A DNA stretch of 64,000 bases, from the NCBI RefSeq assembly GCF_028464065.1, contig NZ_CP116808.1:3191501-3255500 (forward strand), written 5' to 3'. Position 1 is the first letter of the stretch, and every line of letters begins with the position of its first letter. Below the pieces are notes generated by a model. It did not search any database and had not been told where the DNA came from. It saw nothing but the letters and a program-made list of their open reading frames with translations. The DNA comes from Saprospira sp. CCB-QB6 (lineage in GTDB: Bacteria > Bacteroidota > Bacteroidia > Chitinophagales > Saprospiraceae). Below, in pieces: positions 126-62,540 of the stretch. The position numbers and the translations under genes were made by a program.

Positions 126-240
126 TGGGGCTGCCCCTCCCTACGGTCGGGTCGGGCCGTTCCGCAGCTCTGCTCGGCCCTGCGTCGCTTTGCTCCTTGG
201 TCTGCCGCCTGCGGCGGCCCTGCTCCAGCCCCTCAGCCGA
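126..240 (+). repeat. GC-rich structured repeat, subfamily B
   Basis: Starts with GGGGCTGCCCC and ends with CCCTCAGCC, the subfamily B termini. The conserved GCTCGGCCCTGCG and TTGGTCTG blocks are present. The hairpin after GGTCT has arms GCCGCC/GGCGGC with loop TGC. It fills most of the gap before the CHAT gene and gives rise to a spurious open frame. Confidence 0.8.
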
Positions 241-333
241 TGCTGTGGAGAATGCTTAAACTTAAGCAAGTTAAGCCCTATATTAAGTGTATCGCTTTAT
301 CGTTAAGTAATAATATTCATTAAAACAAAACAG

Positions 334-3300
334 ATGAAATCCCTAATCCCCCTACTGTTGTTTTGTCTACCCCTATTCGGCCAAGCCCAGACTTCTCCCC
401 AAGAACTTTATGAGCAAATACAGGAAACAGAAGAAGAGCTTTCCCCCTTAGTCGATAGTTATCTAGGCCTATCCACTTCGAGTCCTAATTATTGGGCCTA
501 TGCCGATAGTCTTTATTACCTATTGGATGCTTTAGGGGAGTTAGAGCTCACATATAACTATTGTTTGACACAGGCAGAACGAGCAGAGACATTAGCCTTA
601 AAGAGGCATTGGAAAAGTTGGAGTTGTTTGCCTTTAATTAACCAAGATAGGGCAGAGGAGGCCGCTCCTGTTATACAGATGCTTTTGGCTGATTGTCCCA
701 AAGACGCAGCAGATTATGACAATTTATTACTTATTTCAGCTAATGTTCATTACCTCTTAGAAAACTATGAGCAAGCTAAAAAGGAGTTGGTTATTGCTAG
801 AAAACTGGCAACCTTAAGTAAGGATCAAGCTAACTTATTGGAGGTACTCAATCTAGAGGGTATCATAGCTTATGATGATGGGCATTTGGCGGAGGCGGAG
901 GCCTTCTTACTAGAGGCAATAGCCCTTTCTAAGGCGCTAGAAGAAGAAAAGGATGCTAGTATATTGATGAATTTGGCCACTATTTATGAAGAAATGGGGC
1001 AAACAACTCGGGCTTTAGAACTCTATAAAGAAGTGCTGCTTATTGATGAGGTTTATTATGGTAAGGATCACTATCTCTATGCTACTGACCTTGATCTTTT
1101 AGGCGTTTTAGAGTATGGTATAGGCGACTATGCCGCTGCCGAAAAACATTTGTTGCAGGCCGAAAAAATATTGCGCAAGACTTTGGGGGAAGGGCATCGA
1201 GACTACCGTAGATGTATCAATAACTTAGCTGCTTTATCTGAAAGTATGGGGAAAGAGGCGTTGACAAAGCAGTATTATGAGCGGCTGATGCAGTTAGAGA
1301 GAAAATATGCTCAGCATATAGGAGACTATGCCTTAGTACTAAGTAATTATGCTGCTTTTTGTAAAAATGAGCAAAATTATCAGCAGGCTCGAAAGCTAAT
1401 TGTAGAGGCGACTACTTTATTGGAGGAGTCGGGCCCTTTAACCCATTTGTTTTCTGTTTATGATAACTACATACAAATCTGTTTAGGACAAAAAGACTAT
1501 GCTCAAGCTAAGGAAATAACAGCAAAGCTTTATCAGGCCAATTTAGTAAAAGATGCAGATTTTTTTGAGGGGGGCTATCCTTTGGTCAAATCAGCTATTG
1601 TTTTACTTGATGTATTTGAGTCTTATGGGCAGATATATCAACAGTTAGGAGAAGAGGAGGCTATTTACTTAGACTCTGCGGCTATGTATTTTGATTTGGC
1701 TTTGGATTACAATCGAAAAATTCGTCAGGAGCTTAGTCATGAGCAAGATAAACAGCGAAATTTATATTTGGGCCAGCGCTTAATCAATCATCAGTTTCAG
1801 GTGGCTTTGGCTCGAAAACAACCTTTGGCTAATTTACTCCAATTAGCGGAAGAACAGAAGGCTGTTTTGTTTCAGGAAGAGCAACAACTAGGGGCTTGGG
1901 GGGTACAACTGCCCGATAGCATTTTGGCCAAAAGAGCTAATTTAGAAGAGGAGTTTATGGCCCTCAAGCAACAGCAGGCACGTAGCTTGGCGGCGGCGGC
2001 CAAAAAGCAGCTAGATGTACAGATTGCTCAGAAGGAACTAGAGATAATTGCTTTAGATAAGGCGATTAAGATGAAGTTTCCAGCTTATTTTGAGCAGCAG
2101 TTGAGCAGCAAGCTTTTGGATGTGTCGGCCTTGCAACAGCAATTGGCCGAAGATGAGCTTTTGTTGGAGTACTTTTGGTCGACTCATGGACTTTATGCTT
2201 TTGCGGTGACTAGAGCGGGCATAAAACTTTATGAGTTAGAAAAAGAAGGTTTATTAGAGGATTGTATGGCTCTGCAGACGGAAATGCAGGCTTATAGTCA
2301 GGTATTGAATAAAGCAGAAAAAAGTCGGGAGCGTTATTTAAGGCTGGCCTTATCAGTTAGTGAGAAATTGATTTGGCCTATTTTGGAAGAACAGAAAGCA
2401 AGTAGGTTGACATTAGTATTGGATGGGCCTATGAGTTATTTGCCTTTTGAGGCCTTATTGAGTAAGTCGGTGCCCTTATCTACGCCATACCAATCATTAC
2501 CTTATCTCATTAAGGAGCGGGAATTGAGCTATCAGTCTTCAGCTAAATTGTATTTGGACTACAAACAGCGGCCACTTTATCCTTACAGTAAAGTCCTTGC
2601 CTTTGCTGGAAGCTATGAATCTAGTCAAGAGTATAGTGAATTGCGCAGTCCTATTTTGCAGAATCGGCGATCTGTATTGGGGCCTTTGCCTGCGGCACAG
2701 AAAGAGGTAGAGTATTTAGAGGCTTTTTTTGATGGTCGTTTTTTATATGGGCAAGCGGCTAGTGAGGCCAACTTTAAGCGAAGTCAGCAAGAAGGCTATG
2801 GTTTGATGCATTTGGCTTTGCATGGGGTATTAGAAAAGCGGCAGCCCTTTTTATCTTCTTTGGTTTTTAGTGAAACGAAAGATAGTACAGAAGACAACTT
2901 TCTGGAGGCTTGGGAGCTTGCTCAGTTAAAAGTCAAGACAAATTTATTGGTTCTTTCTGCTTGTGAAACTGGGGCGGGGGAATATCAATCTGGAGAGGGT
3001 TTATTGTCTTTGGCCAGAGCTTTTCAGTTTGCTGGAAGTTCTTCTATTTTGGCGAGTTTATGGCAGGTTAATGACCAGAGTACGGCCTATATTATGCAGC
3101 GATTTTATTTGTATTTGCAGAATGGGGCAAGTAAATCAATGGCTTTGCGTCAGGCCAAATTAGATTATCTAAATGGGATTGAGAGCCAGAGTTTGGGGCA
3201 TCCTGCTTATTGGTCGGCCTTTATTCAGATGGGGGATCCTCGCCCTATTCCCGTGGCCAAAAAGGGAAAGCTAGCGGATTATTGGCCTTATGCGGTTGGT

Positions 3301-3363
3301 GGTTTATTGGCGCTATCTATTCCGATGGGTTGGTTTGGGCGGCGGAAGCGGAAGGCGGCTTAG
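334..3363 (+). CDS. TPR-CHAT domain protein (caspase-like protease fold)
   Basis: Secreted or envelope protein of 1009 residues. A signal peptide (about residues 1-19, ending GQAQ) is followed by tetratricopeptide-type helical repeats over about 110-520, a coiled-coil-like stretch, and a C-terminal CHAT domain from about 640 to 975. CHAT domains have the caspase/separase fold; the expected catalytic pair is visible as His830 in LALHG and Cys877 in SACETGAG. A hydrophobic segment (about 985-1003) and a basic RRKRKAA tail end the protein, so it may be anchored in the membrane with most of the chain outside. TPR-CHAT proteins can be proteases activated by a partner, some in defence, but no partner gene is adjacent. 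Substrate unknown. Confidence 0.85.
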   Translation: MKSLIPLLLFCLPLFGQAQTSPQELYEQIQETEEELSPLVDSYLGLSTSSPNYWAYADSLYYLLDALGELELTYNYCLTQAERAETLALKRHWKSWSCLPLINQDRAEEAAPVIQMLLADCPKDAADYDNLLLISANVHYLLENYEQAKKELVIARKLATLSKDQANLLEVLNLEGIIAYDDGHLAEAEAFLLEAIALSKALEEEKDASILMNLATIYEEMGQTTRALELYKEVLLIDEVYYGKDHYLYATDLDLLGVLEYGIGDYAAAEKHLLQAEKILRKTLGEGHRDYRRCINNLAALSESMGKEALTKQYYERLMQLERKYAQHIGDYALVLSNYAAFCKNEQNYQQARKLIVEATTLLEESGPLTHLFSVYDNYIQICLGQKDYAQAKEITAKLYQANLVKDADFFEGGYPLVKSAIVLLDVFESYGQIYQQLGEEEAIYLDSAAMYFDLALDYNRKIRQELSHEQDKQRNLYLGQRLINHQFQVALARKQPLANLLQLAEEQKAVLFQEEQQLGAWGVQLPDSILAKRANLEEEFMALKQQQARSLAAAAKKQLDVQIAQKELEIIALDKAIKMKFPAYFEQQLSSKLLDVSALQQQLAEDELLLEYFWSTHGLYAFAVTRAGIKLYELEKEGLLEDCMALQTEMQAYSQVLNKAEKSRERYLRLALSVSEKLIWPILEEQKASRLTLVLDGPMSYLPFEALLSKSVPLSTPYQSLPYLIKERELSYQSSAKLYLDYKQRPLYPYSKVLAFAGSYESSQEYSELRSPILQNRRSVLGPLPAAQKEVEYLEAFFDGRFLYGQAASEANFKRSQQEGYGLMHLALHGVLEKRQPFLSSLVFSETKDSTEDNFLEAWELAQLKVKTNLLVLSACETGAGEYQSGEGLLSLARAFQFAGSSSILASLWQVNDQSTAYIMQRFYLYLQNGASKSMALRQAKLDYLNGIESQSLGHPAYWSAFIQMGDPRPIPVAKKGKLADYWPYAVGGLLALSIPMGWFGRRKRKAA

Positions 3364-3394
3364 CTTATTGGCTTTGAAGCGGAGCTGCTCCATT

Positions 3395-3590
3395 TGGCCT
3401 AGCGATGTGGAGCAGTGGCCCGCAGGGCCAGACCGAGCCAGCTTGCGCGAAGGGCCGAGCGAATAGCGAGCTGCGCAACGTAGCGCCTGCCGCAGGCAGG
3501 AGGCCCAAAAACAGCAGCGAGCTGCGCAACGACAACAAGGCCTTTAGGCTGCAGTTCGACGACCGAAGGGAGTAACTGCTGCGAGCTGAA
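3395..3590 (-). repeat. GC-rich structured repeat, subfamily A, with extension module
   Basis: Inverse orientation: GGCCTAGCGATGTGGAGCAG, then the TGGCCC/GGGCCA stem, GGCCGAGCGAATAGCGAGCTG, and GGAGGCCC. From 3511 a second module follows (AGCAGCGAGCTGCGCAACGA to GGGAGTAACTGC), shared almost identically with 22580-22648 and, inverted, with 29494-29554. Confidence 0.8.
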
Positions 3591-3630
3591 TGCCCTAAAA
3601 ACAGCAGTAAATAGAATGATTTAGGGACTA

Positions 3631-3667
3631 AAAAGGCCCAAGCTTTGGGGAGAAGCTTGGGCCTTTT
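3631..3667. terminator. Bidirectional terminator between convergent genes
   Basis: AAAAGGCCCAAGCTT and its exact complement flank a 7-nt loop, with A and T runs outside the arms. It lies between the plus-strand CHAT gene and the minus-strand lipoprotein and could serve both. Confidence 0.8.
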
Positions 3668-3672
3668 ATCAT

Positions 3673-4416
3673 TTAATTAGAGGAGAGGTAAGTCATTTTG
3701 AGGATATAGCCTTTTTCGGCTTTTTGTTCCCAGGGGATGCCGATACAGTTGGCGATATTTCCGTTGCATTGGGTATCTAGAATGAGTTGTTCTTTATAGA
3801 TGAGGCCATAGTTTTTGGCATAGCGTTCTAGGCTATATCGGCGTTCAATATTGTTAATTTTATCGACTTGTAGGATAGTTAGGACCGAGTCAAAGGCTTG
3901 TCCATTATAGCTATAGTTGCCATCTAATTCGATAATTTCGAACTCATCCCAATCCTTATAGATATCGATACTTCCGCCGGGGATGCTAATGACGGTATCG
4001 CGGCGGATATAGGGGATGCCATCCCAGCTTCGGCCTAGTTGGAGGGGGAAACTCAGGTTGATATAGCGTTGATTATTTTCGATTCGGTAGGCAAAGCTGC
4101 CTTCAATTTGGATGGCCCAGACTTCGGCTAGTTGCCAAGGGCTACTATCTCTTTGGTAATAGCGATTGAGGCGTTGGTAGGCTTGGTTGCGGTTGTCGGT
4201 TTCTGCGCCGCCAATTTCCTCTTTGATGAGGAGAGAGACCGTATCGACAGTACGGTCAAAATCATTGTAGTAAATGCTATCTACTTGATAGATCACGTAA
4301 TGTCCACTATCGGTAGGGAAGTAGCTCAGCTCAAAGTCGGGAAAAGTCTCTGTTTCCTTTTGGCAATTGAGTAGAAGAAGGGACAGGCTAAGCAAGAGGA
4401 AAAAAATAGGCCGCAT
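3673..4416 (-). CDS. Putative lipoprotein of unknown function
   Basis: A 247-residue protein with a lipoprotein signal peptide: hydrophobic run at about 4-17 followed by the lipobox LLNC with Cys18. The mature part is mainly predicted beta strand, rich in Tyr and Asp, with no motif I recognise. It is transcribed alone on the minus strand and ends at the bidirectional terminator at 3631-3667. Membrane anchoring at the periplasmic face of the inner or outer membrane is inferred from the lipobox. I see no function. Confidence 0.75.
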   Translation of the reverse strand: MRPIFFLLLSLSLLLLNCQKETETFPDFELSYFPTDSGHYVIYQVDSIYYNDFDRTVDTVSLLIKEEIGGAETDNRNQAYQRLNRYYQRDSSPWQLAEVWAIQIEGSFAYRIENNQRYINLSFPLQLGRSWDGIPYIRRDTVISIPGGSIDIYKDWDEFEIIELDGNYSYNGQAFDSVLTILQVDKINNIERRYSLERYAKNYGLIYKEQLILDTQCNGNIANCIGIPWEQKAEKGYILKMTYLSSN

Positions 4417-4645
4417 ATTGTTAGGAATTTGGAGAAAGCGAAGAAAAAGGGGAGTTTTTGAATCAGATCACTGTACAATGATAAATAAAAAAACTATTTT
4501 TGGGCAAAATTTGAAAGCGCTCTTTGTTGGGAGCGTTTTTAAGGGAGTGGGAATAGCATTTAAAAATGCTGCTTTAGGTCCGTTTGGGCTGATGGGCTTT
4601 GTTTTGAATGTGTTCTATTTTGATAAAACGTAAAAGCTAAAGCTT

Positions 4646-6037
4646 TTGGCACTATTAAAGTCAATTTCGGGAACTCGAGGAACAATTGGAGGGGCAGTAG
4701 GGGAGAACCTAACTGCTCAAGATTTGGTAGAAAGTACGGCGGCTTATGCCTATTGGATTAAGCAGGAAACGGGTAAAGAAGCTCCCACTGTAGTATTGGG
4801 GCGAGATGCGCGGGTATCTGGAGAATTGATTGAGCAATTGGTTTCGGCTACTTTGCGGATGATGGGGGTACATGTGTATCAGCTAGGTTTATCGACTACC
4901 CCTACCGTAGAGGTGGCTGTGATGCAGGAAGAGGCTGATGGAGGGATCATCTTGACCGCTAGCCATAACCCCAAGGAGTGGAATGCCTTGAAGTTTGTCA
5001 ATCATCGTGGAGAGTTTATTTCGGCCAAGGATGGTAGTGAGATTTTGCGTTTAATTTCTTCTGGGGAGGTAGAGTATGCTTCTGTAGATGAGTTGGGCAG
5101 TTCTCATAAAAAAGTGGGCTACATTCAGAAGCACATTGATTTGATCATGCAGCTCAAGTTGGTCCGTTCAGAATTGACCAAAGAAAAGAATTATAAAGTT
5201 GTTATTGATTGTATTAACTCTACGGGAGCTATTTCTATGGTGCCTTTGCTTGAGCAATTGGGCTGTGAGGTGATCGCGATCAATGATGAGGTTACGGGGC
5301 GTTTTACGCATAATCCAGAGCCTTTGCCCGAGAATCTTTCTGCGCTTTCTGCGGAGGTTCTCAAGCAAAAGGCCGATTTGGGCATTGCGGTAGACCCCGA
5401 TGTAGATCGTCTGGCTTTAATCTGTGAAGATGGCGAGCCTTTTGGCGAAGAATATACGCTAGTTGCTGTGGCTGATTACATCTTGGGCCAAGAAGGAGGG
5501 GGGAATACAGTTTCTAATCTGTCTTCTACTCAGGCTTTGGCCGAATTGACCAAAAAGCATGGGGGCCAATATACAGCTTCTGCCGTAGGGGAGGTCAATG
5601 TGGTGCAAATGATGAAAGAGGTGGAGGCCATTATTGGGGGGGAAGGCAATGGCGGTATTATTTATCCTGCCCTGCACTATGGACGTGATGCTATGGTGGG
5701 GATTGCGCTCTTTTTATCCTTTTTGGCGAGCAGCAATAAGCGCGCTTCGGTTTTGCGCTCTGAATATCCTAATTATGTCATTATTAAGGATAAAATTCAG
5801 CTAACGCCACAGATTGATATAGACCAATTGTTGGAGGCTTTGGAGAAAAAGTATGTTAACTATCCCAAAAATACGATTGATGGCCTCAAGATTTTCATTG
5901 ATGAAAACTGGATTCATCTCAGAAAGTCGAATACAGAGCCTATCATTCGCATTTATACAGAAAGTGCCTCTTCGGTAACTGCCCAAAATCTAGCAAACAA
6001 AATCAAGTCAGATGTTCGAGAGATCATCATGGCCTAG
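4646..6037 (+). CDS. glmM: Phosphohexomutase, probably phosphoglucosamine mutase
   Basis: A 463-residue enzyme of the alpha-D-phosphohexomutase family. The four family signatures are present: phosphoserine loop TASHNP with Ser106, metal loop DPDVDR at 250-255, sugar-binding loop GEGNGG, and phosphate-binding SNTEPIIRIY near the C terminus. Bacteroidota proteins of this type convert glucosamine-6-phosphate to glucosamine-1-phosphate for UDP-GlcNAc and peptidoglycan synthesis; phosphomannomutase or phosphoglucomutase activity is the alternative. The start is a TTG: the protein begins MALLKSISGTRGTIGG, matching the family N terminus exactly, and no ATG fits. It is monocistronic, with a hairpin downstream at 6091. 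Confidence 0.88.
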   Translation: MALLKSISGTRGTIGGAVGENLTAQDLVESTAAYAYWIKQETGKEAPTVVLGRDARVSGELIEQLVSATLRMMGVHVYQLGLSTTPTVEVAVMQEEADGGIILTASHNPKEWNALKFVNHRGEFISAKDGSEILRLISSGEVEYASVDELGSSHKKVGYIQKHIDLIMQLKLVRSELTKEKNYKVVIDCINSTGAISMVPLLEQLGCEVIAINDEVTGRFTHNPEPLPENLSALSAEVLKQKADLGIAVDPDVDRLALICEDGEPFGEEYTLVAVADYILGQEGGGNTVSNLSSTQALAELTKKHGGQYTASAVGEVNVVQMMKEVEAIIGGEGNGGIIYPALHYGRDAMVGIALFLSFLASSNKRASVLRSEYPNYVIIKDKIQLTPQIDIDQLLEALEKKYVNYPKNTIDGLKIFIDENWIHLRKSNTEPIIRIYTESASSVTAQNLANKIKSDVREIIMA

Positions 6038-6090
6038 AGGAGAATTCCTTTAGAAACAAAGTTCAGGAAAAGCTCTTTGAAAAGAATTAA

Positions 6091-6125
6091 AAAGGTTGCA
6101 CATTCTTTGGGAATGAGCAACCTTT
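6091..6125 (+). terminator. Long hairpin downstream of glmM
   Basis: AAAGGTTGC pairs with GCAACCTTT, and inside it CATTC pairs with GAATG, giving one nearly continuous 14-bp stem. Only a weak T-rich tail follows (GTTATTATT), so it is a terminator or 3' stabiliser. Confidence 0.6.
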
Positions 6126-6179
6126 GTTATTATTGATTTAGCCCTTTAGGGCAACTACAGCGAACAACAACTAGATATC

Positions 6180-7310
6180 ATGCAACGAATTTATTTTGAC
6201 AATGCCGCTACCACGGCTATCCGTGAGGAGGTCCTAACGGCTATGTTGCCTTTTTTACGGCAGCAATACGGCAATCCTTCGTCTATTCATGCCGAGGGGC
6301 GAGCGGCCCGAGCCGCCTTAGAGAAATCGCGCCGCAATATTGCAAGAGCAATTGGTGCCAAGCCCTCTGAATTGTTTTTTACTTCAGGAGGTTCCGAGGC
6401 CAATAATACCGCCATTAAAGGGGCCGTAGCTGCCTTGGGCGTAAAAACAATTATCTCTACAGAAATTGAACACGCTTGTGTGCGCAATTCAGTTGGCCAA
6501 ATGCAGAGTCAAGGAATTAATTGTATTGATTTGCCTATTGATGGTTTTGGCCGAGCCGATTTAGGGCAGTTGAGAGCCCTTTTGGCCAAAACTCAAGGCA
6601 AGGTTTTAGTCAGTCTGATGCACTCAAACAATGAGTTGGGCACCCTAAACGATATTGCGACTATTGCCGCCCTTTGCGAGGAGTTTAGTGCCTATTTTCA
6701 CACAGATACCGTCCAAACACTAGGCTATTATCCCATTTCTGTAAAAGAGATGGCCCCCATCCATTTTATGTCGGGCTCTGCCCATAAATTACATGGTCCA
6801 AAAGGTGTGGGCTTTTTGTATGTCCGCCAAGGCATTCAGATTCCCGCCCTAATTGCTGGCGGTGGTCAAGAGCGACAACTGCGATCAGGTACCGAAAATG
6901 TGGCGGGAATTGTCGGTTTTGCCAAGGCCGTAGACCTGGCTTTGGCCCAAATGCCCGAACATCAAGCACAGATCACAGGCCTCAAAACTTATCTAATTGA
7001 GCAGCTGCAAGCCAATTTTGGAGAACGGGTTTCCTTCAACGGCGACTGGCAAGGCCAAAGCCATTATAAGGTGCTTTCTGTTAATTTTCAAACCGAAGTC
7101 CCCACCGATATGCTCCTCTTTAAGCTCGATCTAGCAGGCATTAGCGCCTCTGGAGGCTCGGCCTGTAGCTCTGGCGCACTCAAGGGCTCTCGAGTGCTCG
7201 CTGCCTTGGGCCTTCCCGATGAATTGCGCAGCCTACGCCTTTCTTTTTCTTATGAAAATACCAAAGAAGAGATCGATCGCTGTATTGCAGCTTTATTGAA
7301 GATTGTCTGA
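6180..7310 (+). CDS. Cysteine desulfurase (class V aminotransferase fold)
   Basis: A 376-residue PLP enzyme of the NifS/IscS family, which removes sulfur from cysteine as a persulfide for Fe-S clusters or tRNA thiolation. It begins RIYFDNAATTAIREEV, the family N terminus. The PLP lysine is Lys203 in SAHKLHGPKGVG, HTDTVQ supplies cofactor contacts, and the catalytic Cys329 lies in the ordered loop GGSACSSG. SCSSG-type loops occur in both IscS/NifS and other branches, so I do not assign a symbol. No iscU or sufU is adjacent. Transcription is probably monocistronic; the repeat starting at 7315 begins almost at the stop codon. Confidence 0.88.
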   Translation: MQRIYFDNAATTAIREEVLTAMLPFLRQQYGNPSSIHAEGRAARAALEKSRRNIARAIGAKPSELFFTSGGSEANNTAIKGAVAALGVKTIISTEIEHACVRNSVGQMQSQGINCIDLPIDGFGRADLGQLRALLAKTQGKVLVSLMHSNNELGTLNDIATIAALCEEFSAYFHTDTVQTLGYYPISVKEMAPIHFMSGSAHKLHGPKGVGFLYVRQGIQIPALIAGGGQERQLRSGTENVAGIVGFAKAVDLALAQMPEHQAQITGLKTYLIEQLQANFGERVSFNGDWQGQSHYKVLSVNFQTEVPTDMLLFKLDLAGISASGGSACSSGALKGSRVLAALGLPDELRSLRLSFSYENTKEEIDRCIAALLKIV

Positions 7311-7314
7311 TTTT

Positions 7315-7490
7315 TGGGGCCTCCACTGCGGCCAAAGGCCTTGCGGCGCTACGTTTCGCAGCTCGCTATTCGCTCGGCCCTTCAGCGCCAAAGCGCTTCG
7401 GTCTGGCCCTTTGGGCCACTGCTACACATCGCTAGGCCTGCGGGCGCTCCGCACCCTGCATACTGCTCCTCGCTTCGTTCGTCGAAAAGA
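7315..7490 (+). repeat. GC-rich structured repeat, subfamily A
   Basis: Starts TTGGGGCCTCC five bases after the desulfurase stop. Variable hairpins are AGCGC/GCGCT before GGTCTGG and TGGCCC/GGGCCA with loop TTT after it, then CATCGCTAGGCC. It ends with the CTCCTCGCTTCGTTCGTCGAA variant of the extension module. Confidence 0.8.
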
Positions 7491-7536
7491 ATATAGCCCT
7501 TTTGATAACTAATGATTGTCCAAAAAAATAAAAACA

Positions 7537-7558
7537 CCCCCCTTTTGGGGGATTTTTT
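7537..7558 (+). terminator. Rho-independent terminator
   Basis: CCCCC/GGGGG stem with a CTTTT loop, followed directly by ATTTTTTAT. It separates the desulfurase from the LuxR/stressosome operon. Confidence 0.75.
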
Positions 7559-7617
7559 ATCTAAAAAACATTAAATCTTATAGATAAAAACCTATTTTGA
7601 AGCGCAAAGACTAGATT

Positions 7618-8861: not shown

Positions 8862-8922
8862 TTACAAGCTATAAACTTAAGAAAAAGATAACCGTACATT
8901 AGATCAATAGATAATAGAAATT

Positions 8923-22432: not shown

Positions 22433-22671
22433 GCGGCGCAGCCGCCTTGGCCGAAGGCCAACTGGCCTAGCGATGTGGAGCAGTGGCCCGCAGGGCCAGA
22501 CCGAGCCAGCTTGCTGGCGAGGGCCGAGCGAAGAGCGAGCTGCGCAACGTAGCGCCCGCCTCAGGCGGGAGGCCCCAAAACAGCAGCGAGCTGCGCAACG
22601 ACAACAAGGCCTTTAGGCCGCAGTTCGACGACCCAAGGGAGTAACTGCCTACGGTAGGCAGGAGGCCCCAA
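22433..22671 (-). repeat. GC-rich structured repeat, subfamily A, with extension module
   Basis: Begins directly after the cheB TAG with GGCGGCGCAGCCGCC. The variable stem GCCAGC/GCTGGC (loop TT) lies between GACCGA and GAGGGCC. The extension module occupies 22580-22648, followed by CCTACGGTAGG and a second GGAGGCCCC end, so two boundaries flank the module. It lies between cheB and cheA. Confidence 0.82.
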
Positions 22672-29463: not shown

Positions 29464-29699
29464 TGGGGCCTCCCACCTTCGGCGGGCGCTACCTTTACTC
29501 TCTTCGGTCGTCGAACTGCAGACTAAAGTCCTGGTTGTCGCAGCTCGCTGCTGTCTTGGGGCCTCCGCTGCGGCTTCGCCTTGCGGCGCTACGTTCCGCA
29601 GCTCGCTGTTCGCTCGGCCCTTCGCCGCCTAGGGCGGCTTGGTCTGGCCCTGCGGGCCACTGCTGCACATCGCTAGGCCTGCGGCCCTTCGGGCCTGCT
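29464..29699 (+). repeat. GC-rich structured repeat, subfamily A, with inverted extension module
   Basis: Two GGGGCCTCC boundaries: one at 29464 leading into the extension module (29494-29554, inverse of that at 3511), the next near 29558 leading into the standard element with stems GCCGCC/GGCGGC (loop TAG) and TGGCCC/GGGCCA (loop TGC). Ends GGCCCTTCGGGCC. It follows the TonB receptor stop by 8 bp. Confidence 0.82.
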
Positions 29700-35544: not shown

Positions 35545-35742
35545 TTGGGGCTGCCCCTTCCTCTAGGTTGAAACCCAGCGCAAAGCGGCATCGCTTTGCG
35601 AAGATATACAAAATGAGGGTTGAAACCCTCCTAAATTATCGGGCGGGTCGGGCTGTGTCGCAGCTCGCAGGTCTGCTCGGCCCTTCAGCGCTGCGCGCTT
35701 TGGTCTGGCCCTGCGGGCCACTGCTGTCCATCCCTCAGCCGA
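35545..35742 (+). repeat. Subfamily B repeat interrupted by short hairpins
   Basis: The element begins GGGGCTGCCCC at 35547, is interrupted after about 17 bp, and resumes near 35640 with GGCGGGTCGGGCTGTGTCGC. The inserted 75-80 bp hold the perfect hairpin CGCAAAGCG-GCAT-CGCTTTGCG (35579-35600) and GAGGGTT-GA-AACCCTC (35615-35630). Ends CCCTCAGCC. Confidence 0.75.
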
Positions 35743-50378: not shown

Positions 50379-52397
<2,019 letters not shown>

Positions 52398-52615: not shown

Positions 52616-52625
52616 CGCAGGCAAA

Positions 52626-53810: not shown

Positions 53811-53863
53811 AGGGCAAAAGAACAGATGAAATAGCTAACCACAAAAGCCAACCCCCCTTAGGT

Positions 53864-54007: not shown

Positions 54008-54045
54008 AAATAATTACTCCCTTTACAGATAAACAGCAAAAAAGC

Positions 54046-55698: not shown

Positions 55699-55860
55699 AC
55701 TGAAGCTGTATTTTGGGGCGGTCAGGCGTAAAATGGGCTGTAAATTTAGGCTTTTTTACTGAACTTACTGAAGAATTGAGATCTTGTCCCTCATCTTTTA
55801 GACTAAAGTATAGTTTTGCCCCTAATTAACGTATTCCTATATCCTCTATAAATAGAAAAG

Positions 55861-56826: not shown

Positions 56827-56892
56827 AGGCCAATCTAAGGCCACTAATTCCCCAGATTAAGGCTATTGACTCCATTATATTGCCACTTTTCT

Positions 56893-56933
56893 CCCCCTTA
56901 GGGTTCATCTAGACACTAAGGGGGCTTCTTTTT
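56893..56933 (+). terminator. Terminator after the DUF6427 gene
   Basis: CCCCCTTAG and CTAAGGGGG pair around a 14-base loop, followed by CTTCTTTTT. Confidence 0.8.
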
Positions 56934-56993
56934 GCCCATAGCGCCCTATAACTATCATTATCGTAGTCATAAGATCTCTATTATAAATGATTT

Positions 56994-57134
56994 GGGGCCT
57001 CCGCTGCGGCTTCGCCTTGCGTCGCTACGCTTTGGGGCTCGCTATTCGCTCGGCCCTGCGCAGGCTAGGCCTGCTTGGTCTGGCCCGAGGGCCACCCCGC
57101 CGCATCGCTAGGCCTGCGGCCCTTCGGGCCTGCA
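56994..57134 (+). repeat. GC-rich structured repeat, subfamily A
   Basis: GGGGCCTCCGCTGCGGC, stem GCAGGC/GCCTGC (loop TAG) before TTGGTCTGG, stem TGGCCC/GGGCCA with loop GA, CATCGCTAGGCC, and GGCCCTTCGGGCC at the end. Confidence 0.82.
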
Positions 57135-57396
57135 AAACCGCAAACAGTTAGCCCTAATTTTACCCCATATCCTTGCCACAAAGCATAAACTCAAGGGGAT
57201 CGCTAATCACTCCCCAAGCCCAAGGTTTGCCCTAAATCCATACTCCTCATTCTCGAAGGCCCAAAAAGTAGATTTAAGCTAAGTCCCAAGCTTTACCCCC
57301 TCTCCATCTCCTGATTACCTTATATTTTTGGCCTTTCCCTAGCAAATTCTTCTTGCTTCTGCTTTATCAGCGCCACAGCCCAAAAGCAAAGTCCCA

Positions 57397-57427
57397 ATTT
57401 AGGGCTGTGGCTCCCACAGCCCTAAAT
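57397..57427. repeat. Long perfect inverted repeat with CCACAGCC motifs
   Basis: ATTTAGGGCTGTGG and CCACAGCCCTAAAT are perfectly complementary 14-base arms with loop CTC. Related CCACAGCC or GGCTGTGG motifs recur singly at about 57373, 57443 and 57622, so it is one of several related blocks in this gene-free stretch. Confidence 0.8.
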
Positions 57428-57467
57428 CGGAGAGCGGATTTAAGGCTGTGGCAAGGCCAAAAGATCT

Positions 57468-57616
57468 GCCAAGCTTGGCAAGCTTAATAGTTAGCTTGTT
57501 ATTGTATTTGCCAAACTTGTCGTAGCTAATAGTCAATAAGAAAATAAGCCCGCCAAACTTGTCAGTAGAAATAGTCAATTAACTATTTTATCCGCCAGTA
57601 TTGTCGTCTTTGCTGG
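57468..57616. repeat. Degenerate 42-bp tandem repeat, four units
   Basis: Units begin with GCCA-like sequence at 57468, 57510, 57552 and 57594, exactly 42 bp apart. Shared blocks are GCCAAACTTGTC and TAATAGTCAAT. The first unit starts with the perfect palindrome TGCCAAGCTTGGCA (57467-57480) and the last is partial. It differs in sequence from the 41-bp array at 30075. Confidence 0.8.
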
Positions 57617-58237
57617 ACCTCCCACAGCCCAAAAAAGAGAAGAATTTAGTCCCTCTAGCTCCCCTAAACTTAAAAGGCCCAAGGCCCAAATCTTTACTTC
57701 CTCAGTTTGCACTGCAAGCAAAGAAAGGGAAGGTCCCAAGCCCCAACCAAAAGCGAAAAAGAAGAAAAATGCCTCCTCTCTATACATCTATATACAGACA
57801 AGAATAATGATAAGTAGGGGAGGGGGAGACAACTTTTATCCTCCGCTCTTTTCCTTAGCCCTCAAGCGTCCCTTAACTCCCAAGCAGCAGAAAAGCTAAG
57901 CCCTCATCAGTTAAATCTAGCAGCCTTAGACCAAGAAGGGCCCGCTATAACCCATCAAAATTCCCCATCCAGATAAGAACTAAGGATAAGCCCAGTCATA
58001 AGTCCCTATAGCCTCTCCCAAGGCCCGAATAAAACAAACATAAGCAGCAAACAACTTCCCTTATACCTCCTCTCAAGCAGCCTTAAAGCCCCTCTGCTTG
58101 TCTAATGCCCCTAAAGTAAAATAAAGCAGAATTAAAAAGTTGAAGAGGCTAACTTGTAGACAATCATATATATAGGTCGCTTTTTTGAAGCAAGCCTAAA
58201 GAAAAAAACAAGCCTAAAGAACTAAACGGACAGGGGC
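57617..58237. other. Gene-free stretch before the NAD salvage operon
   Basis: About 620 bp with no gene I can support. The only open frames are short, one rich in Lys and Pro, with no recognisable domain. The composition is unusual for the window: many AAGCC and CCCAAGC words, and a run of TATATATA near 58170. Two direct repeats AAGCCTAAAGAA (58193-58204 and 58211-58221, second one partial) lie just before the operators. Confidence 0.5.
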
Positions 58238-58282
58238 TTAGTTTGAAAAATAAACTAACTTAGTTTGGAAAATAAACTAAGT
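58238..58282. promoter_or_regulatory. Two tandem palindromes, candidate NrtR operators
   Basis: TTAGTTT-7-AAACTAA at 58238-58258 and ACTTAGTTT-7-AAACTAAGT at 58258-58282. The centres are 22 bp apart, about two turns of DNA. They lie 35-80 bp upstream of pncB in front of an operon that encodes an NrtR-type regulator, and the second overlaps the -33 box. Binding has not been shown. Confidence 0.72.
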
Positions 58283-58294
58283 CTAATTATCTTG
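58264..58294 (+). promoter_or_regulatory. Promoter of the pncB-nrtR-pncA operon
   Basis: TTTG at 58264-58267, then 20 bases, then TATCTTG at 58288-58294, close to TTTG-N19-21-TAnnTTTG. The -33 box lies inside the second palindrome, so a protein bound there would block it. The ATG is at 58318. Confidence 0.6.
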
Positions 58295-58317
58295 CTTCAA
58301 CAAAATAGAAAATCCCT

Positions 58318-59772
58318 ATGCAAAACAGTTTAAATAAGCGTTATCGGACGAGCTTGGCCCTATTGACAGATCTCTATCAGATTACTATGGCTTATGGTTA
58401 TTGGAAGGCGGGTAGACAAGAAGAGGAGGCCGTCTTTCATTGGTTTTACAGAAAAAATCCTTTTGGGGCCAATTATGCCATTACGGCTGGCTTGGAAGAT
58501 GCGATTGCTTACCTGCAAGATTTTGCCTTCTCTGTGGATGATATACAGTATTTAGGCGGCCTTAAGGGGGCCGATGGGCGCCCCTTATTTGAGGAAGCTT
58601 TCCTGAACTACTTACAGCGCATGAAATTTAGCTGTGATATTGATGCTGTGCCAGAGGGAAGGGTCGTTTTTGCGCATGAACCACTCTTGCGGGTTAGGGG
58701 ACCACTTATACAGGCCCAGTTATTAGAAACGGCTTTGCTCAATATCCTAAACTTTCAGACCCTAATCGCCAGTAAGGCCCATCAGGTTTGCTTGGCGGCC
58801 CAAGGCGATACGGTCTTGGAGTTTGGTTTGCGTCGAGCTCAAGGTATCGACGGGGGACTATCGGCTTCTCGAGCTGCTTATATAGCTGGTGTGGCGGCAA
58901 CGAGCAATGTATTGGCTGGAAAACTCTACGACATTCCCGTGAAGGGCACGCATGCCCACAGCTGGGTCATGAGCTTTGAGGAGGAGGAGGAAGCCTTTGC
59001 CACTTATGCGCAAGCCCTACCCGCCAACTGTGTCTTTTTGGTCGATACCTATGATACGCAAAAAGGGGTAGATAAAGCGATAGCCATAGGGCAGCAACTA
59101 CGAGCCAAGGGCCAAGAATTGCTAGGCATTCGTCTAGATAGTGGAGATTTGCGGGCCCTAAGTATTTGGGCCAGAAAGCGTTTGGATGAAGCGGGTTTTG
59201 AAAACACCCAAATCATTGCTAGCGATAGCCTGAATGAAGAAAAAATCCGCGCCCTAAAGGCTGGCGGAGCAGCCATAGATAGCTGGGGGGTAGGCACTAA
59301 CCTCGTCACCGCTCAAGATCAGCCCGCTTTGGGGGGCGTATATAAGCTAGCCGCCTTGCGCAAGGATGCCCAGAGTGAATGGGCCTATAAAATTAAGCTG
59401 TCGAATACGCCAATTAAAATCTCTAATCCTGGCGCTTTGCAAGTTCGCCGCTATTACTTAACTGATGGTCGCCCCTATGGAGACATGATTTGGGATGAAC
59501 TGCAGACAAATGATTTGGGCCAACTTCAAAGCTTTGATGGCCGCACTGTCGTCTGCGATAGCCGCAGCTATGAAGATTTGTTGCAACCTATATTTAGAAA
59601 TGGGGAGTTTTGCTATAAATTACCTAGCTTAGGCGAAATACGGGCCGCAGCGCAAAGAGATTTGGCCCTATTCGAGCGGGTAGACTTTAAGCTCTATCCC
59701 CAAGGACTAGAAACGCATTTGGCCCAAAGAAAAGAAGCCTTGATCGAACAGCTTCAGAATAAGAAACAATAA
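58318..59772 (+). CDS. pncB: Nicotinate phosphoribosyltransferase
   Basis: A 484-residue enzyme of NAD salvage that makes nicotinate mononucleotide from nicotinate and PRPP with ATP. Typical elements: [20 protein letters not shown] at the N terminus, [42 protein letters not shown], and the phosphate-binding [15 protein letters not shown] and [12 protein letters not shown]. Length agrees with the long bacterial PncB form. It leads an operon with nrtR (12 bp gap) and pncA (13 bp gap) under the candidate operators at 58238-58282. Confidence 0.93.
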
Positions 59773-59784
59773 GGAATAATAAAT

Positions 59785-60507
59785 ATGGCATATACCTATG
59801 AATACCCAAGGCCAGCTGTTACCGTAGACTGTGTGGTTTTTGGCTTAGACGATAGCGCAGATTTGCGTATTTTGCTCATTGAACGAGCAGACGACCCTTT
59901 TGCTGGACATTGGGCCCTGCCTGGTGGCTTTGTCGATATGGATGAGGACTTAGATCGGGCCGCCAAAAGAGAATTAGAAGAAGAAACTGGGATTAAAGAC
60001 ATCTTTATTGAGCAGTTGTACACCTTTGGGACCCCAAATAGAGACCCTAGAGGCCGAGTGATTAGCGTGGCCTACTATGCGCTGGTCAATTTATCTGAAC
60101 ACCCCATTAAAGCCGCCTCCGATGCTCGTCAGGCTAAGTGGTTTAAGATTTCGGAGCTGCCCCCTTTGGCCTTTGACCATAATCAGGTTTTGGAGATGGC
60201 CCTAGAGCGGCTACGGGCCAAGGTTTTATATAAACCTGTAGGCTTTGAGCTCCTGCCTGATAAATTCACTTTGACGGACCTCCAAAATTTGTATGAAACT
60301 ATCTTGGGCCAGCAGCTCAACCGCCGAAATTTTAGGTCCAAAATCTTAAAAATGGGTCTGTTGGAGCAACAAGAGCGGCAACAGAATGTCCCACACCGCC
60401 CAGCCTACCTCTATAAATTTAATAAAGAAAAATATCAACGGCTATCTGAGCGCTTGGGCGAATTTATCTTTGAAATTCGCTTTCAGCCCAGAGAAACGGA
60501 AGACTAA
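59785..60507 (+). CDS. nrtR: NrtR-type Nudix-related transcriptional regulator
   Basis: A 240-residue protein with an N-terminal Nudix domain (about 10-140) and a C-terminal winged helix (about 155-235, [20 protein letters not shown] then [11 protein letters not shown]). This arrangement is NrtR, a repressor of NAD biosynthesis genes that responds to ADP-ribose. The Nudix box [20 protein letters not shown] matches G-x5-E-x7-REUxEE exactly, so ADP-ribose hydrolysis is possible, unlike many NrtR proteins. Location between pncB and pncA supports self-regulation of NAD salvage. Confidence 0.88.
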
Positions 60508-60520
60508 ATACGATTGACCT

Positions 60521-61144
60521 ATGAACGCACTTATATTAGTAGACCTACAGTACGATTTTTGTCAGCTGGGGGCCCTAGAAGTCCCCGACGGCAATGCTGT
60601 GATTCCCGTAGCCAATGCCTTAATGCCTCATTTTGAGCTGGTCTTGGCCACGCAGGATTGGCATCCCGCCAATCATAAGAGCTTTGCGGCCAATCATCTC
60701 TTTCGACAGCCAGGGCAAGTGATAGACCTCAATGGGTTGGAGCAAATTCTTTGGCCCATTCACTGTGTGCAGGAAAGTTATGGGGCCGAGTTGGTTGATG
60801 AGCTAGATCAAACAAAAATTAGTAAGATTTTTCAGAAAGGAACAGATCCAGAAATTGATAGCTATAGTGGCTTTTTTGATAATGGCCACCGAAAGGCCAC
60901 TGGTTTAGGCGATTATTTAAAGGAGAAAGGCGTAACTAGCGTTTTTGTTATGGGCTTAGCTCTAGATTATTGTGTGAAGTTTACGGCCCTAGATGCTCAG
61001 GCCTTAGGTTTCAAAACCTATTTGGTCCAAGATGGCTGTAGAGCTGTCAATATGCAGGAAACAGATGGCCAGCAGGCGATAGAAGAGCTAAAAGCAAAGG
61101 GCGTGACTATCGTTGATAGTCAAGATGTTGCCACTTTAGTATAG
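60521..61144 (+). CDS. pncA: Nicotinamidase
   Basis: A 207-residue isochorismatase-fold amidase that converts nicotinamide to nicotinate, the PncB substrate. Catalytic triad: Asp8 (LILVDLQYDFC), Lys106 (FQKGTDPEIDSYSGFF) and Cys151 (GLALDYCVKFTALDA). The metal site is in TQDWHPANHKSF. It is the third gene of the NAD salvage operon and is followed by a terminator at 61175. Together these genes recycle nicotinamide to nicotinate mononucleotide. Confidence 0.94.
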   Translation: MNALILVDLQYDFCQLGALEVPDGNAVIPVANALMPHFELVLATQDWHPANHKSFAANHLFRQPGQVIDLNGLEQILWPIHCVQESYGAELVDELDQTKISKIFQKGTDPEIDSYSGFFDNGHRKATGLGDYLKEKGVTSVFVMGLALDYCVKFTALDAQALGFKTYLVQDGCRAVNMQETDGQQAIEELKAKGVTIVDSQDVATLV

Positions 61145-61174
61145 TTTTATCGCATTTTAACAGCTGTTAAAGTT

Positions 61175-61196
61175 ACCCCCTTTGGGGGATATTTTT
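61175..61196 (+). terminator. Terminator of the NAD salvage operon
   Basis: ACCCCC and GGGGG(AT) pair around TTT, followed by ATTTTT. The palindrome TTTAACAGCTGTTAAA lies just before it (61156-61171). Confidence 0.7.
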
Positions 61197-61205
61197 AGAC
61201 TATAA

Positions 61206-61236
61206 TTTGACATTTACAATAAGAGCTGTATCTTTG
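61206..61236 (+). promoter_or_regulatory. Consensus promoter of a candidate small RNA
   Basis: TTTG at 61206-61209, exactly 19 bases, TATCTTTG at 61229-61236: a full match to the Bacteroidota promoter TTTG-N19-TAnnTTTG. No open frame of note follows on the plus strand. Confidence 0.72.
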
Positions 61237-61241
61237 AATTG

Positions 61242-61309
61242 TCTTTGTGTTTATTTGTTTGGGTTTTTAGGGGAGGCTGTCCTGAATAAGGGCAGCCTCT
61301 TTTTTTTTA
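61242..61309 (+). ncRNA. Candidate small RNA of about 70 nt
   Basis: Predicted start about six bases after the TATCTTTG box. It is U-rich at the 5' side (TTTGTGTTTATTTGTTTGGG) and ends in the stem GAGGCTG/CAGCCTC followed by nine T, a Rho-independent terminator. Promoter and terminator alone bound a unit too short for a gene, between pncA on the plus strand and the START-like gene on the minus strand. I did not identify a known family. Confidence 0.55.
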
Positions 61310-61320
61310 AGACCATAAGA

Positions 61321-61352
61321 AGGGCCCTCTAGTACAGCTACTAGAGGGCCCT
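61321..61352. terminator. Strong hairpin at the 3' side of the START-like gene
   Basis: AGGGCCCTCTAGTA and TACTAGAGGGCCCT are exact 14-base arms around CAGC. The T tail on the minus strand is short (CTTCTTATGG), so it may be an end stabiliser or weak terminator for the minus-strand gene. Confidence 0.65.
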
Positions 61353-61365
61353 TTCCCTTTTATTC

Positions 61366-61956
61366 CTACTCTAATAAAGCCCTAAACTTACGCATGGTCT
61401 TATATGGTCCTTCCACTACTGATTTTTGGGCCAACCAGTTGGGAATGCTACCACCAGGATGGGCCACCAACTGTTGTCGGACAAACAACTGCCCATTATC
61501 GAGCTCCTTAAAGTACCAATGACCTTGCATCTCTTTAATCCGAATGAAGCCCTCCTCTAGTTCTTTTTTATTTGGAGCGCTTTTAAAGTCAACACGCAAT
61601 TCCTTATCCGACAAGCGGCGAAACTCGTAATGCGTCACATTGTCTCGGTTTTCGATGGGCCAAGGCATATCCACTTGATAATACACATAAAACTCATCGG
61701 CAGAGACTTCTTGTAGGTTTTCGTTGAGCGGGGTTTCATACATCCATTTTTTGCGCAAATGGGCCTGCTTCAGTGCGTTTTCTACTTGCAATAAATTGGC
61801 AGATATTTGCATTTCGGCTCTGCTTTCTTTCATTTCCCATCCGCTCAATGCACGGCTATAAATAGAGATCCCCTCTTTATCCTTGGCCAATTCCCAAGGC
61901 TGAGCAGATAGGGGCAAAATGGCTCATAAAAGGGCAAATAATAGGAAGTTTCGCAT
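61366..61956 (-). pseudogene. START-like lipid-binding protein gene with in-frame TGA in the signal peptide
   Basis: A START/SRPBCC-type protein (WELAKDKEGISIYSRALSGW, VYYQVDMPWPIENRDNVTHY). From the ATG at 61956 the frame reads MRNFLLFALL, then TGA (61924-61926), then AILPLSAQPWELA: an obvious signal peptide interrupted after ten codons. The frame continues open to 61366 and the rest looks intact. Translation could only start at a TTG (61915-61917), giving 183 residues without a signal. Causes could be a real nonsense mutation, a sequencing error, or readthrough. The domain assignment is by pattern; a hydrophobic ligand is inferred. Confidence 0.7.
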
Positions 61957-62111
61957 AGGCTTTTGTTTAAGTACGGCTATTTTTATTGAATAGACGTTCA
62001 AAAAAGCGACTTTCCCCTATCGCTTTAAGCGGATGCTCCTATAATTTGAAATTTTTTATAGCTGATAACAAAAGACTTAGCTAGAATCTTGACTTTGCTG
62101 TTTAAAAAAGA

Positions 62112-62143
62112 TTTGGCAAAGCTAAAAAGCCGCCTTATATTTG
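62112..62143 (+). promoter_or_regulatory. Promoter of the SRP RNA gene
   Basis: TTTG at 62112-62115, 20 bases, TATATTTG at 62136-62143, followed after 4 bases by the 5' end of the SRP RNA. Matches TTTG-N19-21-TAnnTTTG. Confidence 0.8.
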
Positions 62144-62147
62144 CAGC

Positions 62148-62241
62148 GGAGCCAAGAGACACGGGCAGCTCCTACTGAACTCCCCCAGGTCGGAAACGAA
62201 GCAAGGGTAGGTGGTTGAGCGCTTGGTGTAGATCGGGCTCC
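62148..62241 (+). ncRNA. ffs: Bacterial small signal recognition particle RNA
   Basis: About 94 nt. The 5' GGAGCC pairs with the 3' GGGCTCC, and the apical domain has CCCCCAGGTCGGAAACGAAGC with the GGAA tetraloop and the asymmetric loop bound by Ffh. TTTTTT follows the 3' end. The size is typical of the Alu-less form that guides membrane protein targeting with Ffh. Position between the promoter and the T run fits exactly. Confidence 0.88.
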
Positions 62242-62273
62242 TTTTTTATGAGAATCATCAATAGACTATATAT

Positions 62274-62307
62274 AAAGCCAGTTTTCTGCAAAGAGGACTG
62301 GCTTTTT
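62274..62307 (+). terminator. Second terminator downstream of the SRP RNA
   Basis: AAAGCCAGT and ACTGGCTTT pair around a 14-base loop, followed by TTCTTTT. Reading through the SRP RNA T run would end here. Confidence 0.75.
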
Positions 62308-62365
62308 CTTTTGGGGCTATGGCGCCTAGGCCGAATTTGGTCCAATAGCCGTAGGCGGAAGAGCG

Positions 62366-62540
62366 CAGCAGGCCTAAAGGCCTGCCTTTGGGCGCCCGCA
62401 GGGCGCCTTGCATTGGCTGAGCGATGCGCAGCAGTGGCCCAAAGGGCCAGACCCAGCGGGCAAAGCCCGCGCAGGGCCGAGCGAGCAGCGAGCTGCGGAG
62501 CGTAGCGACCCTAGGCCGAAGGCCGTAGGGGCAGCCCCAA
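62366..62540 (-). repeat. GC-rich structured repeat, subfamily B variant
   Basis: GCAGGCC/GGCCTGC (loop TAAA), GGGCGCC/GGCGCC, GGCTGAGCGATGCGCAGCAG, stem TGGCCC/GGGCCA (loop AAA), stem GCGGGC/GCCCGC (loop AAA), GGCCGAGCGAGCAGCGAGCTG, GGGGCAGCCCC. Lies between the SRP RNA and the TetR gene. The rest of 61957-62616 is AT-rich. Confidence 0.78.

Follow-up and report, generated by a model that had tools for sequence, protein, structure and literature searches.

Intergenic multi-hairpin elements of Saprospira: exchangeable paired stems, mostly alternating orientation and a putative role in chromosome punctuation

What keeps the stems of a repeated element paired when the stems themselves differ between copies? 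This question is raised by a window of 64,000 nt from Saprospira sp. CCB-QB6, a marine predatory bacterium (genome G000, contig C1, positions 3191501-3255500; the genome comprises 4.24 Mb and a second contig of 53,242 bp, a plasmid), in which the original prediction, made from the letters of the window alone, had noticed about 20 copies of a structured intergenic element in both orientations. These copies belong to one family of intergenic elements of about 120 nt (111-142), of which 228 full copies were measured. The helices of the family covary, its hairpins are exchanged as modules, its sites are shared between species and the orientation of neighbouring copies mostly alternates. We hold with moderate confidence that it is a maintained element of the chromosome that forms a DNA structure and exchanges its hairpins as modules, with a putative role in chromosome punctuation.

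The element family and its anatomy

Covariance model R1, which was built from 24 genome copies including some from the window, matches the window at 20 places, with E-values between 7e-21 and 3e-7. These are the same 20 sites as predicted, with coordinates that differ by up to about 95 nt because a tail hairpin or an extra module adjoins the element. The copies are given here with their end types and R1 scores.

127..238, + strand: element copy with type B ends; 49.2 bits
3396..3507, - strand: element copy, type A, extra module on the 5' side; 100.2 bits
7316..7438, + strand: element copy, type A, the exemplar; 120.9 bits
13192..13305, + strand: element copy, type A, close inverted pair with 13477; 89.4 bits
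13477..13608, - strand: element copy, type B; 102.2 bits
20777..20890, + strand: element copy, type A; 103.6 bits
22464..22576, - strand: element copy, type A; 104.2 bits
26576..26697, - strand: element copy, type A; 79.3 bits
29558..29679, + strand: element copy, type A, partial element and insert module upstream from 29464; 111.3 bits
30526..30646, - strand: element copy, type A; 102.5 bits
35616..35740, + strand: element copy with type B 3' end, a GGGGCTG 5' end lying upstream at about 35547 and another palindromic insert between; 83.0 bits
36417..36537, - strand: element copy, type A; 97.7 bits
39778..39899, + strand: element copy, type A; 94.3 bits
41679..41792, - strand: element copy, type A, orthologous site type B in three sister genomes; 103.8 bits
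48498..48628, + strand: element copy, type C, close inverted pair with 48711; 92.9 bits
48711..48842, - strand: element copy, type B; 96.2 bits
52472..52592, + strand: element copy, type B; 69.8 bits
53888..54006, - strand: element copy, type B; 81.3 bits
56994..57114, + strand: element copy, type A, type B in three sister genomes; 104.0 bits
62415..62538, - strand: element copy with type B ends and A-like J1 (hybrid); 104.8 bits

In the whole genome the 20-nt core occurs, with at most two mismatches, 406 times forward and 405 times in reverse (811 in total), and the reversed-pattern control 3 times. Each of two patterns finds 281 copies in 857,242 nt, which extrapolates to about 1,390 per genome. 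The 281 strict cores were reduced to 237 by the 5' end and GGTCT, to 228 by the 3' end and to 218 by a 3' segment of 20-22 nt; the statistics given below rest on these 218 parsed elements, all but one of which (217/218) lie outside the genes predicted by our own open reading frame caller. That no described family matches, as had been proposed, agrees with Rfam 15, which has no match at the gathering threshold in the window; at E<=1, region 7200-7560 around the exemplar gives only three weak matches, each in the flank. Nor was a description of the family found in the open-licence literature, although the Lewin genome paper (Saw et al. 2012) possibly mentions it.

From 5' to 3', the element is ordered TTTT-GGGG-P1-V1-P3-P4-core-V2-GGTCT-V3-P4'-P3'-P1'; in P1, P3 and P4, the outer helices, roughly 60-110 nt lie between one arm and the other. 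The parts of the exemplar are as follows, with the covarying pairs named by the column labels (J114, five7 and so on) of an alignment that is anchor-based and not fitted to a structure.

7318..7322, + strand: 5' arm of P1, GGCCT, pairing with 7434-7438; five6-Q19 and five7-Q18 covary, and arm types agree
7323..7345, + strand: variable hairpin V1; a13-b18 and a14-b17 covary
7346..7360, + strand: J1 with the 5' arms of P3 and P4 and the conserved CGCTAC block; J14-Q15, J18-Q11, J113-Q5, J114-Q4 and J115-Q3 covary
7361..7380, + strand: constant core, GCTCGC-loop-CTCGGCCC, kept in other carriers
7384..7397, + strand: variable hairpin V2; a25-b29, a26-b28 and a27-b27 covary
7405..7417, + strand: variable hairpin V3 with a triloop; a32-b35, a33-b34 and a34-b33 covary
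7419..7422, + strand: 3' arm of P4, CTGC, pairing with GCAG at 7358-7361; J114-Q4 and J115-Q3 covary
7434..7438, + strand: 3' arm of P1, AGGCC; covariation and arm types as for the 5' arm

Among the 228 full copies P1 is GGCCT/AGGCC in 107, GGCTG/CAGCC in 70, GGCCC/GGGCC in 26 and GGCTT/AAGCC in 6, the remaining 19 being others, mostly mismatched combinations. P4 variants seen by eye are GCAG/CTGC, GTGG/CCAC, AGGG/CCCT and GGGG/CCCC. The inner stems are far more diverse, with 157 distinct V2 and 123 distinct V1 segments in 218 elements, A/T-only forms included, as the prediction of varying but complementary stems had it. At the 5' flank a fixed T-run (T in 87-98% at -3 to -1) precedes GGGG, whereas the 3' flank shows no fixed tetranucleotide and never a C at +1 in the 218 copies. 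A sixth inner helix, P6, between CTCGGCCC and GGTCT, was dropped: it does not vary, and of its 1,090 cells 219 are G-T and 218 other.

Further observations concern variable and optional parts. In the internal loop of P3 (J1 positions 6-7 with Q12-13), CTACG goes mostly with CATCG and CTATG with CAGCG by eye, a linked change that is no plain Watson-Crick swap. At 33 places in 857 kb a module around GTTACTCCCTTYGGTCGTCGAACTGC, which forms a small hairpin of its own, stands beside or inside elements; in the window these places are 29464-29557, about 3540-3565 and 22610-22635 (-). At some sites the module is present in one species and absent from another. Some elements have another palindrome, around TGAGGGTTGAAACCCTCA, in place of their V1 region or beside it; it occurs in the window at about 35560-35615 and also in sister genomes. 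On the 3' side of 44/218 elements stands TGCGGC..., a tail hairpin of type TGCGGCCCTTCGGGCCTG (e.g. window 48691 and 53864) that looks like a further optional module.

Covariation and the exchange of modules

The covariation of the helices is real. Helix pairs rank first in a G-test with average product correction, and against a null of our own, a tree-based simulation with a FastTree tree, column-specific rates and 40 alignments, 40 column pairs are significant at E<0.05. Of these, 21 belong to the 28 named helix pairs, so that six helices hold significant pairs; the other 19 are neighbours inside one hairpin, helix or core loop, and none links two modules. Fifteen of the 21 are paired in 93-100% of copies, where 42-79% is expected from base composition, and the remaining six in 61-90%. 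The covariation that the original prediction had proposed as a check is borne out by this null.

Other genomes point the same way. A second set of 62 matches from G025, G021 and G012 has 91.4% standard pairs against 69.4% after shuffling and 279 two-sided cells against 92, a result that is biased towards the model because this alignment was fitted to it. An alignment-free comparison of other carriers, in which exact duplicates were counted once and 12 elements without 3' motif or with a short flank were left out, finds at least five perfect pairs of P1 in 52/96 elements, against a mean of 12.9 (maximum 24) in 300 swaps of 3' ends. With one element per group, P1 reaches at least 4 bp in 16/24 against 3.5 (maximum 10 in 500 swaps), the 24 groups being genomes or metagenome-assembled genomes (MAGs) and not all separate genera. 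These carriers show 14 distinct P1 arms, and 17/24 groups have at least one element at five or more base pairs; 26 of the 52 successes come from G025 and share one identical arm. Seven groups have no such P1, among them MAG-63 (0/22, with a single constant mismatch by eye) and Aureispira (0/2).

How the stems change can be read between orthologous copies in three sister genomes, G005, G002 and G001, which share about 83-87% identity with G000 in aligned blocks. Between G000 and G005, orthologous elements are 82.4% identical, their 60-nt flanks 79.4% and the 14 constant core bases 99.2%, so the constant blocks of the prediction stand; random copies of one genome are 74.0% identical. Changes are two-sided rather than one-sided in V3 (45 vs 0 for G000-G005, 35 vs 0 for G005-G002), in V2 (72 vs 13 and 52 vs 3) and in P4 (43 vs 10 and 29 vs 1). 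Concerted two-sided change is clear for these three and not for P3 and P1. The modules also assort: loop, V2, V3 and P4 are nearly independent of each other (normalised excess mutual information at most 0.17), the J1 and Q segments holding P3 reach 0.84, and P1, V1 and J1 are linked at 0.41-0.65, a linkage that matches the expectation from the end types.

Such block-wise change could mean that structure is not selected at all and that templated quasi-palindrome correction, together with the copying of whole modules, keeps the hairpins perfect. Besides the mostly two-sided, module-wide changes of V2, V3 and P4, the strict Watson-Crick pairs with wobble almost absent speak for this, and so does the finding that P4 two-arm swaps are accompanied by changed V2 and V3 in 20/20 cases between G000 and G005. 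However, distant arms should then often mismatch after half-exchanges, yet J114-Q4 of P4 pairs in 95% (47% expected) and five7-Q18 of P1 in 94% (49% expected), P4's own arms overall in 93-97%. Moreover, P1 in other carriers differs and still pairs, and one of ten P4 swaps between G005 and G001 (site 71182) changed both arms while leaving V2 and V3 intact, a rare defective V2 included. We therefore regard an unselected structure as improbable, the least probable of the explanations considered here.

The original prediction had itself offered recombination of a few master copies as a counter-explanation. This stands as far as V2, V3 and P4 differ mostly by two-sided block swaps and not by stepwise compensation. 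On the other hand, 157 V2 segments, 14 P1 arms elsewhere and P4 arms that are paired although loop, V2 and V3 assort almost freely relative to P4 indicate that the pairing itself is maintained. Short-tract gene conversion together with purging of mismatched outer arms probably explains the turnover best: conversion between copies would have its breakpoints in the constant blocks, and copies with unpaired outer arms would be removed by selection.

Orientation, spacing and the level of action

Three features are new beyond the original prediction, namely the distant arms of P1, P3 and P4, the four main paired end types and the mostly alternating orientation of neighbours. In our own 275-kb block around the window, 68/83 neighbouring pairs alternate, against a mean of 41.8 and a maximum of 59 in 20,000 shuffles. 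The sister genomes give 78/90 (G005), 79/90 (G002) and 63/83 (G001), the four species not being independent because sites are shared among them. In 37 other stretches of G000, 183 pairs alternate and 21 do not (p 2e-33), or 147 vs 33 with a looser pattern; none of these stretches overlaps the window, although the 275-kb block includes two of them (L041, L042), and their length of 20 kb cuts long intervals. The plasmid gives 16/18 (shuffles: mean 9.5, maximum 17), G117 from another genus 20/28 (mean 14.1, maximum 22) and MAG-63 9/11.

The two kinds of interval differ in length. For '-+' intervals, those with facing 5' ends, the medians are 3.7-4.6 kb and the coefficients of variation 0.33-0.35 in four contiguous blocks, and the 10-90% range is about 2.3-6.8 kb. 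Under 1.5 kb lie 0/34, 0/39, 0/39, 0/31 and 2/87 of the '-+' intervals, as against 22/34, 21/39, 21/40, 19/32 and 53/96 of the '+-' intervals; with the looser pattern the shortest '-+' intervals are 1.1-1.6 kb, and single '--' pairs are closer. In G000, 34 '+-' intervals hold 32 genes (18 of them none) and 34 '-+' intervals hold 94. Wherever two parsed elements lie close together they are inverted, with their 3' ends facing (18/18, and likewise 10, 12, 13 and 12); the looser pattern shows a few close same-direction matches.

Polarity of replication or transcription is not supported as the cause of alternation, since orientation is even by 0.6-Mb bin and by gene context. The simplest account, and a partial one, is selection against direct-repeat neighbours, which would delete the genes between them: it fits the rarity of ++ and -- pairs and not the different spacing of '+-' and '-+' intervals. 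Both observations would agree with bracket-shaped insertion units that show immunity, which however require a mobile past. More speculative is orientation-coded punctuation, in which hundreds to thousands of clusters, recognised by shape, would face each other with their 5' ends across domains of about 4 kb, on the plasmid as on the chromosome, while their paired hairpins are swapped. We offer this as a tentative idea that is rather doubtful at present.

The original prediction had left RNA and DNA side by side. Selection on RNA would here mean a cis-acting structure such as an mRNA 3' stabiliser, a processing site or a terminator-like structure in transcripts of either direction. A multi-helix fold with covariation is what one would expect of it, and among gaps of at least 150 nt divergent ones are poorer in elements (26 in 75 gaps) than convergent (52 in 60) and tandem ones (128 in 197). 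However, elements between tandem genes are evenly oriented, 63 in the same and 65 in the opposite orientation, the flank profile shows no T-run after the structure, whichever way it is read, and Rfam has no match on the element. A helix selected in one RNA strand should moreover tolerate G-U, whereas mispairs in the six helices are equally rare, with G-T in 26 and A-C in 33 of 5,668 cells, which favours DNA.

The hairpin loops are strongly strand-biased as well. Loops of the GNA/GNNA class in V1, V2 and V3 together lie on the bottom strand in 379 cases and on the top strand in 1: TNC triloops (GNA on the bottom strand) number 321 against 1 top GNA, and TNNC loops 58 against 0 top GNNA. The rest of the 654 loops are 184 others of 3-4 nt (AAA, TTT, CAAG and so on), 60 longer ones and 30 uncalled. 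The commonest V3 tetraloops, TGAC (13) and TAAC (9), read GTCA and GTTA on the bottom strand and are GNNA, not GNRA. Other carriers have the same tendency, with 59 T..C, 1 top G..A and 82 other loops. Perfect triloop hairpins outside parsed elements, with strands pooled, are of the GNA/TNC kind in 164/549 intergenic and 120/890 coding cases. GNA and GNNA loops form a class of extraordinarily stable DNA mini-hairpins, as described in the available part of the source (PMC4686876). With DNA parameters, the minimum free energy (MFE) of the whole element is lower for the bottom strand in 198 and for the top strand in 19 of 218 copies. Taken together, mispairs, loops and gene orientation make a DNA-level structure more likely than an RNA one, which is not proof, and a cis-acting RNA seems to us quite improbable, if slightly less so than an unselected structure.

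Age of the sites, distribution and meaning

Mobility was part of the original prediction. The sites are, however, old: where both genomes hold an element, it has the same orientation in 50/51 cases for G000-G005, at 86.5% identity, in 46/46 for G000-G002, 44/44 for G000-G001, 50/50 for G005-G001, 51/51 for G002-G001 and 66/66 for G005-G002, at 95.9% identity, 20 to 38 elements per species pair being unassigned. Sites without a strict match number 1-6 per direction, and most of those inspected hold a variant or interrupted element. For G005-G002, the 5+1 such sites comprise two with end motifs round a replaced interior, one with a variant element, two ambiguous alignments and one without an element. 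Among the compared orthologous sites no clean empty site was found from which a target duplication could be read. At the G002 orthologue of position 259643 of our own block, an element is seemingly interrupted by about 1.5 kb of other DNA.

Carriers make up 24/199 Saprospiraceae genomes and 20/112 genera, with 1 to 714 matches each (pattern with at most one mismatch; control 0). A scan of named genomes finds, among the 80 of 120 stretches listed, Saprospira grandis, Phaeodactylibacter luteus, an Aureispira MAG and Saprospiraceae MAGs; plasmids of S. grandis match part of the host plasmid at 90.7-93.1%. Viral contigs have 0 matches to the exact pattern, and G003 and G004, which bear the same genus label but are distant (51-60% identity in one protein), have no match to the element. 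G004 (L318-L325, 148 kb) has a short palindrome family of its own, with the 12-mer CCGATAGCTATC 31 times and the variant CCGAAAGCTTTC 9 times, which differ in their letters and keep the symmetry.

The search for a transposase or TnpA-REP gene, which had been proposed, came out negative as to linkage. G000 has three Y1_Tnp genes, 0.9, 1.0 and 1.6 kb from the nearest element, and non-carriers have Y1_Tnp too; linkage to RAYT/Y1 is not supported. Ten proteins next to six of the seven single-copy loci (G057 left out) gave no common and no mobility-suggesting family. For a retroelement origin no evidence was met, though no search aimed at retroelements was made.

Recent mobility is thus not supported: at most of the orthologous sites that could be resolved both genomes carry the element in the same direction, and no transposase is linked. 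It might nevertheless lie in the past, the copies being mostly immobile relics of a selfish, non-autonomous element (REPIN- or MITE-like) that are homogenised by gene conversion, with inverted pairs or '+ ... -' brackets, with cargo genes or none, as the moving unit. Copy numbers that reach hundreds in some genera and are 1-7 in others suit an amplifying element; intergenic location, the fixed T-run at the 5' side and the inverted close pairs would fit too, and alternation would follow from non-nested bracket units. Against this stand the resolved orthologous sites, most of which keep both element and orientation even at 86.5% identity, the missing linkage to a transposase, the neighbour proteins and the near absence of 5'-facing spacings under 1.5 kb, which would be unexpected from random insertion. 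A mobile origin is unlikely in our opinion, though it deserves more attention than an RNA role.

Known systems resemble the element in part. With REP, BIME and REPIN sequences, as far as the available parts of the sources describe them, it shares high copy number, extragenic position, palindromes, hairpin formation and close inverted pairs (PMC2817692, PMC3116915, PMC8266576, PMC3733652, PMC12306157). The REP-likeness that had been predicted therefore holds in these respects, while the differences lie in length (111-142 nt and six covarying helices, as against a single palindrome of 20-40 nt), in the lack of a GTAG/CGTC tetranucleotide at the stem foot in the flank profile, in the lack of a linked RAYT and in sites common to several species. 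BIMEs alternate REP orientation within one cluster, according to the part of the source available (PMC2817692), but here alternation is chromosome-wide over kilobases. Saprospira is not named in the available parts of REP surveys, nor does the available text of the S. grandis WHT genome paper contain 'repeat' or 'intergenic' (PMC10508125). With regard to MITEs, the only inverted sequence at the element ends is the 5-bp P1.

The bcr elements of the Bacillus cereus group are likewise dispersed, structured repeats with many copies per genome; the likeness is by description only, and no alternation or module exchange was met in the listed parts of the bcr literature. Integron attC sites keep their structure while the sequence varies and are recognised as a folded single strand, but they have one hairpin each and one orientation, in arrays beside an integrase, whereas the element alternates genome-wide and has a branched fold. 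The convergent CTCF rule of vertebrates, in which the facing orientation of polar sites brackets domains, is an analogy in logic only: the element is bacterial and acts, if at all, on a kilobase scale, with no homology implied.

We return to a maintained, DNA-structure-forming element with a putative role as punctuation. In its working form the element would act as DNA and be either a branched hairpin cluster on a single strand or an extruded cruciform, composed of P1, V1, the P3-P4 stalk, the core loop, V2 and V3 and with the GNA/GNNA loops on the bottom strand. Its role may be REP/BIME-like punctuation, for instance as the putative target of a protein of the nucleoid or of repair, or of a topoisomerase, that recognises shape and not sequence.

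A number of observations weigh against this interpretation. No binding protein, cruciform or phenotype is known to go with the putative punctuation role. The conserved structure is not the fold of minimum energy, nor does free folding of single copies recover it: with DNA parameters its mean energy is -11.0 kcal/mol on the top and -12.5 kcal/mol on the bottom strand, whereas the MFE averages -29.3 kcal/mol (top). Measured against mononucleotide shuffles of 40 copies, the MFE has a mean z of only -1.7. RNA parameters favour the bottom strand too (156 vs 61), V1 alone is more often stabler on the top strand (115 vs 94, DNA parameters), and its loop TTGC (23; GCAA on the bottom strand) is GNRA as well. 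Copying of modules may have carried part of the loop bias along, and an RNA role in two orientations would likewise forbid G-U pairs. Concerted change is not seen cleanly in P3 (two-sided vs one-sided 11 vs 7 for G000-G005, 3 vs 5 for G005-G002, 0 vs 10 for G002-G001) or in P1 (4 vs 2 for G000-G005, 0 vs 2 for G005-G002), and a few sites hold end motifs only or nothing recognisable in one species. Alternation is weak at the few P. luteus loci (4/7), and the patchy copy numbers are to be added here.

If the polar alternation is functional, it would represent a chromosome-wide, orientation-dependent punctuation in a bacterium that can be read from the sequence. Even otherwise, the family is a large body of natural data on paired DNA arms that remain paired while modules are exchanged, and its strand symmetry and loop classes are of use in telling structure at the DNA level from structure at the RNA level. 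The family also has a bearing on the long-standing question of the purpose of REP-like repeats.

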